DNA of 64,000 nucleotides, taken from positions 63,149,248 through 63,213,247 of the forward strand of contig NC_088711.1 in assembly GCF_963576615.1 (NCBI RefSeq). Reading direction: 5' to 3'. This document shows, piece after piece, positions 21,462 through 62,340 of this stretch (position 1 is the stretch's first letter; every line of letters begins with the position of its first letter). This DNA is from Watersipora subatra (Eukaryota; Bryozoa; Gymnolaemata; Cheilostomatida; Watersiporidae). The notes under the pieces were generated by a model. That model saw only the letters and a program-made list of their open reading frames with translations. It was not told the DNA's origin and searched no databases. The translations under genes and the position numbers were made by a program.

Positions 21462-30520
<9,059 letters not shown>

Positions 30521-55373: not shown

Positions 55374-55417
55374 CATGTCTCCGAGCCCTTCCATTTGGTT
55401 CTGCCTAGGTACTATCT

Positions 55418-58400
55418 CTAGTCAGCTACACTAATAAGGTAGCTCGGAGCTATACCATCTTCATCATCTGGTGATGCCCATTCTAGGTTGTCTATAGAAG
55501 TTTCCAGAAATCTCATCACCGTTAAATGTATTAACTGCAACATACAATATACAAAATATCAAGAGTTAACAGAAGGTAACAAACTAGAAAAAAATAGTAA
55601 GCAATAACTGCACATATTAGACCTAAGGTTCCTGGTTGTACACACGTGTTCATAGAAATGAATGTTAAAACAACAGGTTATCAACACCTTTAACAAAGTA
55701 TTGATCAGGTCTACCTGCAGCACTATGATGCAGGTCAGAAATACCGCTGCTGGCAGCAGAATAGCTTGCTTGAAATAGTCTAGCATGGCCACCTTACAGC
55801 CATCTTCATTCAGGGTGTCAAACACAGCGCTGTGAGTTGCAATGTTGTTTATGTCTTCATGCTGACACGGTGTCACAGGTGATTCAGGGTCACAACAACT
55901 GAATGGTACATCAGTCACATGATACACACTAGTCTTCATTCTACAATACACGGTTGCAATAAACTACATGCAAGTAGAACATACGTGTGAGGGAGAATGC
56001 AAGGATTAATACAACTGATATCTGTGCATGCAGTATACCTTGCAAGACTTTCCTCCCGCAGGTATTCTTGTTTTTTCCACATAATTGTGAACCAATCTTC
56101 AGGTCCAGTGCTTCCACAGCATTGGAAGTCTATTTGGATGTTATCCATGGTTTGCTGAAAAAGTGTACTCTGGCATTTAAAAAGTCCTCCAGATTTTGGA
56201 GTGCCCCATATTGGTCTTATCAGATTGTGTTCTCATTAGTCTTTGTACTTTTAACTCTGGTTACTATCAGACTAATACTAGCAACAAACATACTGTAATA
56301 CTTACAACAACCTACAACATAAGATGCACTGCTTCTCAAGACATTGATAAATCCTGCGCGGTCTTTCTATGGCTAATAGTGTATACATCTATGGAGTACC
56401 ATAAAGAAACAGCTCATCTAAATAGGCTCGTAGCACTTCAAATCTGATTTATATTGTAAAGCAGTAGGCTATTTAATTATTCTTGACAACTGTGATAAGG
56501 GTTTTCACCAATAACTACTTCATAACAACTCATTAGCTGCGCAGGTTATGACTATAATAGCAGGTAAAGCAAGTAGCATGTTTACCTGCGAGCATGTTTT
56601 AGGGAGTCTAAAGGTTAGAATTAAGAACAAACAGAAGTAAAGCTCCAGACACAGTACATGTGCAGGTACACTATTAGGCCAAACACATTTCTGTGATATA
56701 AATATCATATAACTAGAAATTCTCCTGTCATACAGCCCACGACCAAAGTGATATTGGAAAAAAGAAAGGGTACTGATGGTTGAGAAATGCAATATTAGCA
56801 GTCAAATGGCACTGCAGTGCAATAGGATAACTGCAATGGTAGCTGTAATGTACTGGGTGTAGGTGTTATTATATACAACAAACAGCAATAATGAAAGGAA
56901 AAGATTATATGTTTTTATCTCTCCCCCTGCAATAGGAGAAATGCAAAATGCAATATTGGCCAATATTAGCAGTAAAATGCACTGATATTATTAGAATAAC
57001 CAATATTATTAATATAGTAATAATAGAAAACCATTGCACAATTTTGTTTACAATTCCAAACGCCATAGCTAACAATATAAAGAAGTTGTGATATTTATAT
57101 AGATCTTTAGAAAATCTATTTAAAAAAGTGTTTGGTCATGACAAGCAGCAATAATGAAAGGAAAAGATTATATTTTTATATCTCTCCCCCTGCAATAGGA
57201 GAAATGCAGTATTAGAAGTAAAATGCACTGATATTACTAAAATAACCAATATTATTAATATAGTAATACAGTAATAATAGAAAACCAATGCATAATTTTG
57301 TTTACATTTCAAAACGTCATAGCTAACAATATCAAGAAGTTATGATATTTATATAGATTTTTAGAAAATCTATTTAACAAAACTATTTAGAAAAAATAAT
57401 AACAGTAACATACTGCCCATCATCGATGTTGTTAGTGTGACTATAAGACTTCAATAGTCATCCAAACTTATAATTAAATATTGTAATAATCTCATAAGAA
57501 TCGTTAGAAAAAAATATCATCATTTCTTTTACTTTCACTGCTTTGGACATCAGTTAGAATACCAAAGTACTCAAAAGTTTCCAAAATTTCAGTTACTTTG
57601 AAATCGGCAAAAACAAACAATTTCTGTACTTCTACGTTAATTACAGAAACCTTCGGCAATTCGACAATGCTATAGACTGGTGAAATGTGCACATTATTTT
57701 TTCGTGAAATGTGCACGACTTAATGGTTCTATTCTCTGTCACTCGGTGTTTCGTTTGCCGGTTTTAATTTTAATAAAAGTAAGGCTTGGCCAGTTTTAAT
57801 AAAAATTTTTGGCCGAATTTATCTGTCTATTTATGTATAATCCGATCAGATGGGTTAGTTTTAAGATATTGCGGTAACCTTTCAAAGACTTGGGAACATA
57901 TTTAAATAGGTTTATATGTGTGTTGTATCGTTATTATACTTTAACGACTCTACAAAAAAATGGTTAAATTTGCTGATGAGATTTCGATGCAAGGGTTTGC
58001 GACGTTGTTGATGAGTAATTTTCATAAGTTGTGTGCACATGCATTTATTATAAAAACTCTCAAACTTCGCTCCGCTCATTTGGTCGTGGGACTATGCAAA
58101 AGGAGTTCTTAGGCTATACGGGTAGTGAAAAAATGTGCCTGTTGGCAGCACGAAATAATACTTGATAGAAATAATACGAAAAATAATACCTTGCTCATGG
58201 CTCCGTCAGCATACATGCTCATCACTCCCCCAAGGCCTTCCTCGAGTGCATCATCCAGTTTATTCAACTGCACACCTACCGTCACTCCACTGACCACCAC
58301 CAACACCACACTGACCACAGTCACGCATATCCATATCTGGAACAGCCTTTGCGCGCCTACAGCGTTGGGATATTTGATTAGGTACGCTGTCAAAAAAGTG

Positions 58401-61400
58401 TGGAGCTAGCCTGATCTCTAAGGGCACTAGATCACTTGATTTACAAAACTGTTCTTACTTTTAATCTCATAATTCAGCACAAAATATCTTCTAGTCTAGG
58501 AGTCAATAGCACTACATATGTCCTAGTTACATTCTGTTTCTTTTCACGCGTGTCTGTTGAAGCTTTTTAGTATCACCAGCATTTTTAGATGCTTGTTTGC
58601 AAAGACTACAGATCAACTATTATGCATGGTTATACATGTTTGTCTCTCCAGACTCCGATACAGTATAATAATGACACGAGTGTGTAATGTCATCATTAAG
58701 TTGCATTTAAATACACTGGTCCATAAAATAAGTCCGCTCATCAAACAGTAACAATTCTGTTTCTACTTTCATGTTGATTTGGTTGTGCAATAGTACATGT
58801 GATTCTCTTAATTTGCACCCACAAATCATTCTCTCTGAATTAAGGCCTGTCGATTCCAAGTAACCTTCATCCTTCAAAATTATCTAAAATCGTACAAACT
58901 ATGCAAAAATTTTACCAAGGTATCCAGAGAATTCTCATCTCACACTAAATATAAGCTGTCTAAACTGAATAACATAAATATATTATAAGACATAATCAGC
59001 TGCCTCTATGCAGGTCTTCCTGAAGCCTGTCAGAGAGGGCTCATGTCAGCACTAGATAGAAACACAGATTCTAGACATATCTTCAGTGATTGGCAGCGAG
59101 TAAAATCATTGTGAGTTACACTGGTGAAGACAATGTTTATTTTATTAATTGGAAATTGCTACATAAAATTTTTGTATGTTTGGAAATTCCTTTCTTTCAC
59201 GAACCCGCTGACTCATAGTACACATCAGCTGCCTTGTAGGAGCTATGAGAACAGTTCGTTAGTCACCTCACCCAAAGGTACTTTTGTCTGTAGATCTTTT
59301 CAAAATTCTATCCGATATTTTATAGTTTCAAGCAAGGGAAGGTTTGAACAAACACTAAAATTGTTTGTCACTTACAATTTGGCTCAAAATAATTCCTTGC
59401 AGAAAAACCATTTTATGGTTTTTGTTATCTCAATCAGAAGTCTTATATTATAGACTACATATACCTAGGGTAGTCTAGTGGTAGCATCTCTGACTATCAA
59501 CCATGGGGTTGGTGGTTCGAGTCCTGCTTAATGCTGATCTGACTAAAAGCTCTCAGCAAGCTTCAACCCTAAATTGCTGGGTCTTTCGACTTAGACTTTC
59601 GATTTAGACTATAACTTGGAGGGCCCATGTTCCACACTGACATCGTGGGCACGTTAAAGATCCACTTCTGTCCTTCGCGCATTGGGCAAGTGAAATGGCT
59701 ACCTGGCTCTGTCAGACTGGATGTGTTGCGAAATGCATCCATTCGGGTCAATCTGACAGTTCCAGAAGTGGTAGATACTGAGAACTAGGTCACCTCTACT
59801 CTACCATACTGCTTGACCCAAGCATGCATCGCTAAGATGCATGCATGTCATCGTCGATTTCGACAAACAACCAAAAAAATTCAATGACTGTTTTTTTTTA
59901 ATTATAAGTAAATCGTTATTTTGATTTCAACTATTACAATTACTATAGCTATTAAATTTGTTGAACAGTAAAAAATGCTCACCTTGGCTGCCCTCAGACC
60001 GAGTCCTTGATCTGCTTTCCTTTTTAAACTGCTGAGTGGCTACCAGGTTTGCTATCATCTGCCCCAGACCACATGTTACATAGACAATCATGAAGGGTTC
60101 ATTCTTGTAGCCCTGTAACACGCGCAGTTCACTTGTAGCCCTGTAACACACGCAGTTCACTTGTAGCCCTGTAACACGCGCAGTTCACTTGTAGCCCTGT
60201 AACACGCGCAGTTCACTTGTAGCCCTGTAACACGCGCAGTTCACTCTTGTTACCCTGTAACACGCGCAGTTCACTCTTGTTACCCTGTAACACGCGCAGT
60301 TCACTTGTTACCCTGAAGTATAAACACTAGACTTTTATCATTTTATAAATGGTTTACTCTACACTTTACTTACACTATATTGCTAATGCTATATTTAGCA
60401 TCAAATAAAAAAGTAGTTTTATTACATCTATGGCCAAAACACAGAAGCCATATATTGTACAATTAAAGTCTCGTTGCTGTATTTTGTTCAAACTTAATTA
60501 GTTTTCATAGTTTAATTATAACAGCATGACTGTCCCCATTGTCACAATTCGGCATAATATATGACGGCTTTTATTTTCTTGGTAAAATAACTGTTTATAA
60601 CCAAATTTGGAAATGTGTCACATAAAAATCACATGTCACAGAAGGCCAGAAACAGTGAAAAGTCAAAATCAATTCATAATATTTTGGCAAATCTTTATAT
60701 GGGTAGGCAGAGCGCATACTCTGCTTTGTTAATTCATGAGAAATAGTACAGTGGGGTCAGAGGCCCTTGCTGCCAGCGGCAGCCTTTTCAAGAAACAACC
60801 TCAACCTGTTGTTCATAGGTCAGCTCCTTTAAACAATTAGGTCATGGCAGGTCTCTTCCAGTAACAATATATAAACTGCCGATAAGCTTACAATGTTATG
60901 ATTGTTTAGATAACAAAGTCACAGTACCTGCCTGTTGATTGGTCACATGCTACAATTCTCAAGTCAAAGTACTTGCCTGCTGATTGGTCAAATTTTACAA
61001 CTCTCAAATCTAATACTTAGATGTTGATTGGTCAAATGTTATAACTAAAATATTTATGATGAGTTGACATTATTTGGGTCGAACAGCATTGTATTGATCT
61101 CCAAATAAACAGTCAGGAAAACACTAAGTTGAAAGTTATTGATATATAAATTTTGTTCTTACTGTTTAATTATGATTATCATAATAAAGGTCCTACGAGA
61201 CAGTACCTATGCTATCCCAACATTTTTAATATTAAAGTCAATCATAAGTTGTCTATATACCATGTATATATATATAAATCTTAAAGTGTGGGTGTTTCGG
61301 TTTGTCCAGGCAAATATCTTACCAATTGAGCTACGTAAGATGGATGGATTCTTTGGGCGATATATGACGCTATGTGGGTAAAAATATGCAGTGTTCTGCA

Positions 61401-62340
61401 TACGACGCAATTTCGTTTTATGCTTGCTCTCATGGCTCTTATTAGTAACTTTAGCAATAGGTTACTAGCTTACTCAAATTACCGATTGGAAATATGCCAG
61501 ACTAATAGCAAGTGGCAGACAACTCTCATTGTCTCTAGGCTAATTTTTAATACTCAGGCAACGTCGGGTAGCACATCTAGTAGGCCTATCTATATATATT
61601 TCTCACATTTTGTGTGTAGGTATGTGTGTAGTTCCAGCTATGTTAAAACCATCATATACAGTAAAGAATCTGCATCGCAGAAGATTTGATCTTGGACCCT
61701 CCAGTTCACTAGTCCGAGGCCTTACCAATTCAGTCACACGAGCTTGATAGATTCATAAGGTGTTATATGTCGCTATATGGGAGCAAATACACTATAGCTC
61801 TCCGTCACAACGCGAAGTCATGAGAAACGGTAGCTCTTATTAGTAAGCTTTTTCGAATTATCCATTGGCAATGTGCCAGGCTAATAGCAAGTGGCAGGCA
61901 AATCTCATTTCCTCTCATTGATGATAAGCTTATTTTTAATACTCGGGCAAAGCCGGGTAGCACAGCTAGTACATGTATATGGTCATGAAAATGTGGTGCA
62001 CATTTTTTCATAACACAGCACTTACAAGCAAGTGGTTGAGACTAATGCTGTTCTATATTTGGTGGTGAAAACATAAATAAATTACGGAGCAAAAAAACAA
62101 CCAGTGACAGCAAGGCTAGTCTATGAGAAATGAGTTTGATAAGTAAAAGGTAGATGTCATCGTTTCCGTTACCTCAAGAATACTAGTATAGGGTCCCAAC
62201 AGGCTGAGTAGTGAGATTCCAAAGACTACCATAAGAACACCCATCAAGGAGCACAGGCCGCCAGTAAATAAGGCAATGTAGCCAAGAAAAGCTCTTCCCC
62301 TTTCACCTAGAAAACATTGCGGAAATCCATACCTTACCAT
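55418..62340 (-). CDS. Peripherin-2/ROM1-family tetraspanin
   Basis: Tetraspanins organise membrane microdomains; peripherin-2 and ROM1 shape photoreceptor disc rims in vertebrates. Six minus-strand exons join in phase: 62173-62340, 59983-60112, 58190-58386, 56039-56154, 55715-55940 and 55418-55534; 317 residues. Membrane segments: TM1 (YIALFTGGLCSLMGVLMVVF), TM2 (FMIVYVTCGLGQMIANLVA), TM3 (ICVTVVSVVLVVVSGVTVG) and TM4 (AILLPAAVFLTCIIVLQ). The large loop holds MDNIQIDFQCCGSTGPEDWF, VPFSCCDPESPVTPC and NEDGC, close to peripherin-2 MLQIEFKCCGNNGFRDWF and VPFSCCNP. Six loop cysteines are conserved (177, 178, 219, 220, 229, 252); the seventh, peripherin-2 Cys150, is replaced by Ala162. Start at ATG 62340 is the simplest choice; an in-frame upstream exon is possible. 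Exon 2's acceptor lies inside a minisatellite. Confidence 0.88.
56881..57375. repeat. Tandem duplication of about 230-bp units in a tetraspanin intron
   Basis: About 56881-57124 and 57146-57375 share 'cagcaataatgaaaggaaaa', 'tctctccccctgcaatagga', 'aataaccaatattattaata' and 'ttagaaaatctatttaa' in the same order and orientation, with small indels. It is a local duplication without coding content. Confidence 0.85.
57376..58189. other. Tetraspanin intron, no feature seen
   Basis: AT-rich intron between the duplication and the TM3 exon. A direct repeat 'gaaatgtgcac' at about 57681 and 57704 is all I note. Confidence 0.3.
59468..59880 (+). mobile_element. tRNA-derived SINE in a tetraspanin intron
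   Basis: The head reads gggtagtctagtggtagcat, with a pol III A-box-like tagtctagtgg and a B box GGTTCGAGTCC at about 59514-59524. The body contains 'gacatcgtgggcacgttaaa' followed by gatcc, a conserved core seen in SINEs of several marine invertebrates. The 3' side ends A-rich near 59875. Target duplications were not found, so the ends are approximate. The tRNA-like head does not form a good acceptor stem, so it is not a functional tRNA. Confidence 0.75.
60104..60316 (-). repeat. Minisatellite carrying repeated copies of the tetraspanin exon 2 acceptor
   Basis: On the minus strand the array reads GTGTTACAG/GGCTACAAG then TGAACTGCGC, units of 28-30 bases, about seven copies. The copy nearest the exon (AG at 60113-60114) is the true acceptor, since it is followed by AATGAACCCTTCATG and the conserved TM2 frame. 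Upstream copies keep TTACAG/GGCTACAAG (later ones TTACAG/GGTAACAAG). Use of any upstream GGCTACAAG copy would read GGC TAC AAG TGA, an immediate stop. Confidence 0.88.
61252..61580 (+). mobile_element. Helitron-like non-autonomous element, copy 1
   Basis: Begins TCTATATACC...ATATATAAATCTTAAAGTGTG, the A/T-rich TC start common in Helitrons. It ends with a GC hairpin (caggcaacgtcggg) followed by CTAG and then T. No inverted repeats or target duplications are present, as expected for Helitrons. Length is 329 bp, non-coding. The 'accaattgagctac' stretch near 61320 is tRNA-like in reverse. Confidence 0.65.
61589..61969 (+). mobile_element. Helitron-like non-autonomous element, copy 2
   Basis: Begins TCTATATATATTTCTCAC directly after an A and ends ctcgggcaaagccgggtagc, acag, CTAG directly before a T, the classic Helitron terminus and A/T insertion site. 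Its right half matches copy 1 (tggctctta/tagctcttattagta, 'gccaggctaatagcaagtgg', 'ttatttttaatactc'). The two copies lie head to tail only 8 bases apart. Confidence 0.7.

Follow-up and report, generated by a model that had tools for sequence, protein, structure and literature searches.

How does an intron come to end in a run of copies of its own acceptor, and what does such a run do to the message of the gene that carries it? We examined this question for a minisatellite located at the 3′ end of an intron in a minus-strand tetraspanin gene, inside a window of 64,000 nucleotides (C4:63149248-63213247 of a 784-Mb assembly) whose genes contain introns. Our answer is that the array is likely to be a mirage-type minisatellite, a by-product of frequent duplication within introns that serves no dedicated function.

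Structure of the array and its host gene

The joined first exons of the host gene match the Pfam tetraspanin family (PF00335) over residues 16-177 with 47.7 bits, above the Pfam cut-off of 32.1, while a later exon by itself scores 19.9, below that cut-off. For a query that included a few intronic residues at two exon joins, the nearest solved relatives were ROM1 (E 7e-9) and peripherin-2 (E 8.7e-9), with the next tetraspanin at 0.14, and by this similarity the gene is a predicted tetraspanin of the peripherin-2/ROM1 type. The same query yielded no close paralog in which the acceptor could be seen in its pre-array state: four matches were the gene's own exons, and two weak ones were located on C9. 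A candidate tiny coding exon with an ATG, at about 62431-62413, fits in phase and has a donor score of only 3.8; if it counts, the array-bearing exon would be exon 3, not exon 2. The donors at 62172, 58189, 56038 and 55714 score between 3.3 and 4.0, compared to a 5th percentile of 6.0 for donors placed elsewhere, which may be a mere effect of how the training donors were chosen.

The array spans the intron-exon junction at 60104-60315, with a period of 28, 7.4 copies and 95% matches (TRF), and is thus a minisatellite in the usual sense of several head-to-tail units of 15-100 bases. In the direction of the gene, the unit lengths are 28, 30, 30, 28, 28, 28 and 28 bases, followed by the exon start at 60112, so that there are eight acceptors: one in each of seven intronic copies (a copy number read from a single assembly) and one at the exon's own edge. 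In gene order they are located at 60312, 60284, 60254, 60224, 60196, 60168, 60140 and 60112. The preliminary description had placed the array here, with units of these lengths that include the acceptor and the first exon codons, and on these points our unit listing and reading frames agree with it. It had also given every unit as TTACAG/GGCTACAAG; four of the seven intronic units, those proximal to the exon, do carry this exon-like sequence, but the three distal units have GGTAACAAG/GGTAACAAGAG, with an extra AG after GGTAACAAG in two of them, and the first acceptor is CTTCAG. Units 4 to 7 have one C/T difference, in unit 6. Coordinates are collected in Table 1.

Table 1. Positions and properties of the arrays, their exons and the repeated junctions found elsewhere in the genome (window coordinates unless a contig is named)
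Feature	Position	Strand	Properties
Preceding tetraspanin exon (ERGRAFLGYI...SILE)	62173..62306	-	ends in phase 0; donor CTTGAG/GTAACG
Unit 1, 28 bases, GGTAACAAG	60285..60312	-	preceded by acceptor CTTCAG; product GNK-stop
Units 2 and 3, 30 bases each, GGTAACAAGAG	60225..60284	-	10 codons each, in frame; reading ends at the TGA of unit 4
Units 4-7, 28 bases each, GGCTACAAG	60113..60224	-	GYK-stop from each acceptor
Productive exon (GYKNEPFMIVYV...GSQ)	59983..60112	-	inside the PF00335 match; donor GCCAAG/GTGAGC at 59982
Downstream tetraspanin exons	55415..58356	-	placed by match, frame and score; last (~55534-55415) tentative
DYRK1A exon end and donor array	25645..25788	-	TRF; four identical donors ATATAG/GTCAGT and one decayed (25640)
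L165, kinase exon end (HRDIK, ~60 coding bases) and donor	C1:52825705-52826456		111-base unit, three copies; weakly placed, donor score 2.3
L090, myosin exon end and donor			two copies
L095, myosin exon end and donor			two copies
L024, tetraspanin exon end and donor			several copies; junction ~1738 (scripted 1763), both in the array
L171, kinase donor			weakly placed, donor score 2.3; least certain of the seven
L133, TCP1 exon start and acceptor			
L092, myosin exon start and acceptor			129 bases apart; weakly placed, acceptor score 2.8

The first 9, perhaps 16, bases of the productive exon are the last, partial copy of the unit, with the longer figure suggested by the shared bases TGAAC. Past GGCTACAAG, the homology consists of these five bases at an offset of two, the exon continuing as GGCTACAAGAATGAACC where the 30-base unit reads GGTAACAAGAGTGAACT. 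Because of this offset, and because unit 1 is without the two bases concerned, an ancestral unit of either 28 or 30 bases is possible. The exonic portion falls inside the Pfam tetraspanin match, which argues that the exon is the older part. A DNA search of the assembly, which skips very common words, returned four matches to the unit, all at this locus, and therefore points to a local origin.

The same intron contains a 45-base unit in 2.9 copies (60916-61046), about 600 bases from the acceptor array, and, by eye, two diverged copies of a repeat-like element at 61540-61980 that include the stretch 'GCTACCCG(A/G)C...TTGCC(C/T)GAGTATTAAAAAT'. Also by eye, a downstream intron of the gene has two segments of about 200 bases that resemble each other (56880-57340), each with GCAGGGGGAGAGATA at its end.

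A second array in the window repeats a donor rather than an acceptor. The exon concerned (...HNKYYI), which the preliminary description assigned to DYRK1A and which fits that name, ends at 25767, and this exon end is repeated, together with an identical donor, at 25735, 25701 and 25669, in agreement with the earlier claim that this array, too, has a splice site in its unit. The residues KYYI are probably conserved in the DYRK1A of other animals. The same DNA search, again skipping very common words, gave two assembly matches to this unit, both at the locus, and spread from a dispersed repeat was rejected for either array. A further array in the middle of a DYRK1A intron (22729-22947; 23-base unit, 9.5 copies) touches no placed splice site.

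Eight acceptors and one open frame

To score splice sites, we built position matrices on the 155 acceptors and 120 donors that had been placed in this genome's exons. The array's eight acceptors lie between the 42nd and 77th percentiles of the 155, although these percentiles are partly circular as the sites were themselves picked by a generic score. They are nearly equivalent to one another and score like ordinary acceptors of this genome. With the preceding exon attached in phase 0, they give, in gene order, GNK-stop, 23 codons and a stop, 13 codons and a stop, four times GYK-stop and, from 60112, an open frame. From each of the seven upstream acceptors, 3 to 23 codons can be read before a stop; the claim that only the last copy yields protein was borne out. 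The accompanying claim, that upstream copies read straight into TGA, is accurate for units 4 to 7 and unit 1, while units 2 and 3 add 20 or 10 codons first.

A stop in the neighbouring copy requires no special cause, because copies with one sequence, read in one phase, must end alike. Stop-bearing products from the upstream acceptors are expected to undergo nonsense-mediated decay. Since a unit of 30 bases keeps the frame and contains no stop, an early duplication of this length would have done almost no harm. At 60225-60284, the peptide GNKSELRVLQ is repeated in an open frame, with the near-palindrome TGTTACAGGGTAACA inside; in units of 28 bases the frame is lost.

At 60312, where the array has its first AG, the acceptor score is acceptable, and a spliceosome that simply scanned onward from a branch point further upstream would prefer this site, which would leave the allele mostly unproductive. 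As with lancelet mirages, splicing probably relies mainly on the exon-proximal copy. Two other arrangements were rejected. Donors or micro-introns within the array are disfavoured by their scores, as every GT scoring above zero lies under all 120 placed donors. A hairpin in the distal units (TGTTAC-AGG-GTAACA) that would mask the upstream AGs is disfavoured by the fold of the array RNA, which is less stable than 98 of 100 shuffles (z +2.0).

Comparison with known junction-spanning repeats

The mirage of lancelet Adh was reportedly described originally by Canestro in 2002, and a minisatellite with multiple donors in human IFI6 (6-16) is said to have been described by Turri in 1995. Lancelet mirages that span exon-intron boundaries are reported for Adh3 and for the globins BflGb6 and BflGb9 (PMC3087553), and the list was later extended by PGBD5, in a paper that also cites troponin C (PMC3902484). 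The tetraspanin array has the anatomy that defines a mirage, a unit with an intron end, an exon start and a splice signal, as far as the sequence of one assembly tells. Like the lancelet cases, it consists of copies of an intron end and exon start (as in BflGb6; in BflGb9 it is the 3′ boundary of the exon that is copied), with splice signals in many units. It differs in scale, as its units have 28-30 bases compared to 150-160 in the lancelet globins and 10-72 in Adh3, and in the supporting evidence, as the lancelet mirages come with RNA data and with length variation between haplotypes. In BflGb6, haplotypes have six or three units, and the Adh3 mirage shows somatic instability; according to the RT-PCR described in the same report, these mirages leave regular splicing undisturbed (PMC3087553).

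Four further systems share parts of this arrangement. In intron 18 of human ABCA7, a 25-base VNTR has the exon 18 donor as its first bases; one retained unit breaks the frame, and array length correlates with lower expression and with exon 19 skipping (PMC5954066). There too, a minisatellite touches an exon and has the splice site in its unit, and use of the site in the following copy changes the frame and leads to a stop. However, the ABCA7 site is a donor, its unit begins at GT, and the array is polymorphic with effects measured in RNA, whereas the sites of the tetraspanin array are acceptors that were scored. The human IFI6 (6-16) minisatellite supplies multiple splice donors (PMC4526556), and there, too, the repeat units give the edge of an exon a choice of splice sites, but those donors are used in transcripts while the tetraspanin array offers acceptors of which one is productive. 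In a potato RdRp gene, an intron was gained by tandem duplication across an intron-exon boundary (PMC4974935); that duplication, too, spans an acceptor and turns exon bases into part of an intron, although it made a new intron, while the seven tetraspanin copies bear no sign of a new exon. Finally, segmentally duplicated human genes have internal tandem repeats at their exon-intron boundaries, and these repeats change how the genes are spliced (PMC2812944). Their units of about 30 bases resemble ours in size and placement, but they are supported by comparison of paralogs and by RNA, and the tetraspanin array by its genomic sequence.

The ABCA7 case gives substance to a functional reading of the tetraspanin array, in which the upstream acceptors would be poison sites and the copy number would tune the amount of productive message. 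All seven upstream acceptors score as genuine and every one ends in a stop, and in ABCA7 it is likewise the next copy's donor that retains one unit, breaks the frame and accompanies lower expression (PMC5954066). Nevertheless, we regard such a splice rheostat as unlikely. The lengths and sequences of the units vary, the array RNA folds poorly, and the same arrangement is present in unrelated genes at a rate not above that of intron interiors, as described below. Lancelet mirages are, moreover, reported to leave regular splicing intact, and we lowered the standing of this alternative for that reason (PMC3087553, PMC3902484).

Recurrence at other junctions of the genome

We sampled 173 exons from the same genome using matches to four Pfam families, taking 23 of 24 tetraspanin exons (L012 overlaps L006 and was dropped), 50 of 142 kinase exons, 60 of 75 myosin exons and 40 of 72 TCP1 exons; several of them share one gene and are not fully independent. 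Their 346 edges gave 275 junctions (120 donors and 155 acceptors), each located through the Pfam match, the open frame and the score rather than through transcripts, after leaving out 71 edges without an acceptable splice site. A junction was counted as repeated when a 24-base word across it had at least 18 matches in another copy nearby.

Within 120 bases, 5 of the 275 junctions were repeated (four donors and one acceptor), compared to 0 of 1375 when the flanks were shuffled. Extending the distance to 230 bases gave 7 of 275 (five donors and two acceptors), a proportion that describes four families in one genome. The rates for donors and acceptors did not differ significantly within 120 bases (4/120 versus 1/155, P 0.17). 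The earlier suggestion that such arrays recur in this genome is therefore upheld. Arrays at three other loci (L038, L087 and L115) start at or touch a donor and are outside the seven.

The kinase junction L165 is a clearer instance than the tetraspanin array. Its unit includes Pfam-matched coding sequence (HRDIK), as do the units of L090, L095 and L133, and because the repeated part is recognizable coding sequence, the exon is the source of the repeat in these clearest cases.

The searches also located about a dozen long TCP1-like open frames scattered over 8 Mb at C3:22.6-30.7 Mb, a distribution that suggests amplified or retrocopied genes. Three kinase open frames, each of 397 amino acids and with nearly equal scores, are located at 2.75, 2.90 and 3.15 Mb of C9, at a spacing of 150-250 kb.

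Tandem copies at exon edges and inside introns

Given that the window has two such arrays and that 7 of the 275 junctions sampled are repeated, exon edges in this genome could be hot spots at which mutation creates tandem duplications, as the preliminary description proposed. We measured tandem coverage around the edges of the Pfam matches in 153 exons. Coverage at 30-60 bases inside the match edge was 0.8% on the acceptor side and 0.3% on the donor side, and in the last 30 bases inside it was 1.5% and 2.6%, respectively. Outside, it was 1.5% and 3.7% in the first 30 bases, 4.0% and 5.0% at 30-60 bases, and 8.3% and 7.8% at 150-250 bases; farther out, in the 53 longer loci, it was 5.5-11% and 6.7-15%. 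Tandem coverage declines on approach to the exons.

Shifting the 24-base test by 40-120 bases into the intron gave 7-10 of 120 on the donor side, compared to 4 at the junction, and 1-7 of 155 on the acceptor side, compared to 1. When 20 bases of the intronic side alone were tested, the junction itself gave 5 of 120 on the donor side and 1 of 155 on the acceptor side, and positions at 40-100 bases gave 7-9 and 2-7, respectively. The difference between junctions (5/275) and intron (about 12/275) is not significant (Fisher P 0.14), and neither the coverage scan nor the 24-base test has a peak near exon edges. Junctions are thus without enrichment and possibly depleted, as they would be under selection.

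Inside the window, a tandem copy was present at 224 of 6360 sampled positions (3.5%). Two of the 27 placed junctions are repeated, in a window that was selected for having these two arrays, and this number lies within expectation: P is 0.25 against the window's own tandem density, and 0.09 or 0.15 against the genome-sample rates of 5/275 or 7/275.

Seeding at exon edges was consequently not confirmed, since tandem copies at junctions are no more common than 40-120 bases into the intron. The scan proposed for this claim divides in the same way: the 275 sampled junctions exceed their shuffles but not the intron interiors. Junctions have fewer tandem copies than the intron has at a distance of 40-250 bases, and although selection could mask a mutational excess at exon edges, we consider hot spots a very unlikely explanation.

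Proposed origin and effect

The comparison with intron interiors is consistent with mirage-type duplication as a by-product, whose source would be a genome that often duplicates short segments throughout its introns. A segment spanning the junction, with 14-19 bases of intron end and 9-16 bases of exon start, would have been duplicated in tandem and would then have expanded to seven intronic copies by slippage or unequal exchange. Protein would be made only when the last acceptor is used, and the products of the other seven, stopping after 3-23 codons, would be lost to nonsense-mediated decay.

The order could in principle be reversed, with an intronic minisatellite unrelated to the exon capturing the acceptor as it grew towards it. 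Intronic arrays are numerous, and the three distal units have GGTAACAAG where the exon has GGCTACAAG, but the units that abut the exon share nine exact exon bases and TGAAC with it, and in better-conserved genes (L165, L090 and L133) a plainly coding exonic part has been copied into the intron. Capture is accordingly a highly improbable origin for the tetraspanin array. An assembly error, in the copy number or in the entire array, is close to negligible: one assembly is the sole source and a draft genome had a lancelet mirage assembled wrongly (PMC3087553), but the units differ from one another in length (28 or 30 bases) and in sequence (GGTAAC or GGCTAC, and one C/T), which argues against simple stutter.

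Implications

The tetraspanin array is by itself an ordinary outcome of mirage-type duplication, ordinary in its mechanism and of a known kind, and it is the frequency of such arrays in the genome that is of interest. At its most far-reaching, young minisatellites with several competing copies of the splice site would enclose a few per cent of this animal's splice junctions, thousands of genes would have length-variable splice rheostats or nascent introns, and the exon-proximal copy would be chosen by rule. We consider this a long shot; if true, the arrays would expose a rule of the spliceosome, namely exon definition rather than scanning for the first AG. Eight nearly identical acceptors of similar score in one intron form a natural test of how the spliceosome chooses. 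In the literature cited here, mirage-type duplication has so far been reported gene by gene, and the 7 repeated junctions among the 275 sampled suggest that this source of new splice sites, and perhaps of introns, lends itself to genome-wide counting.
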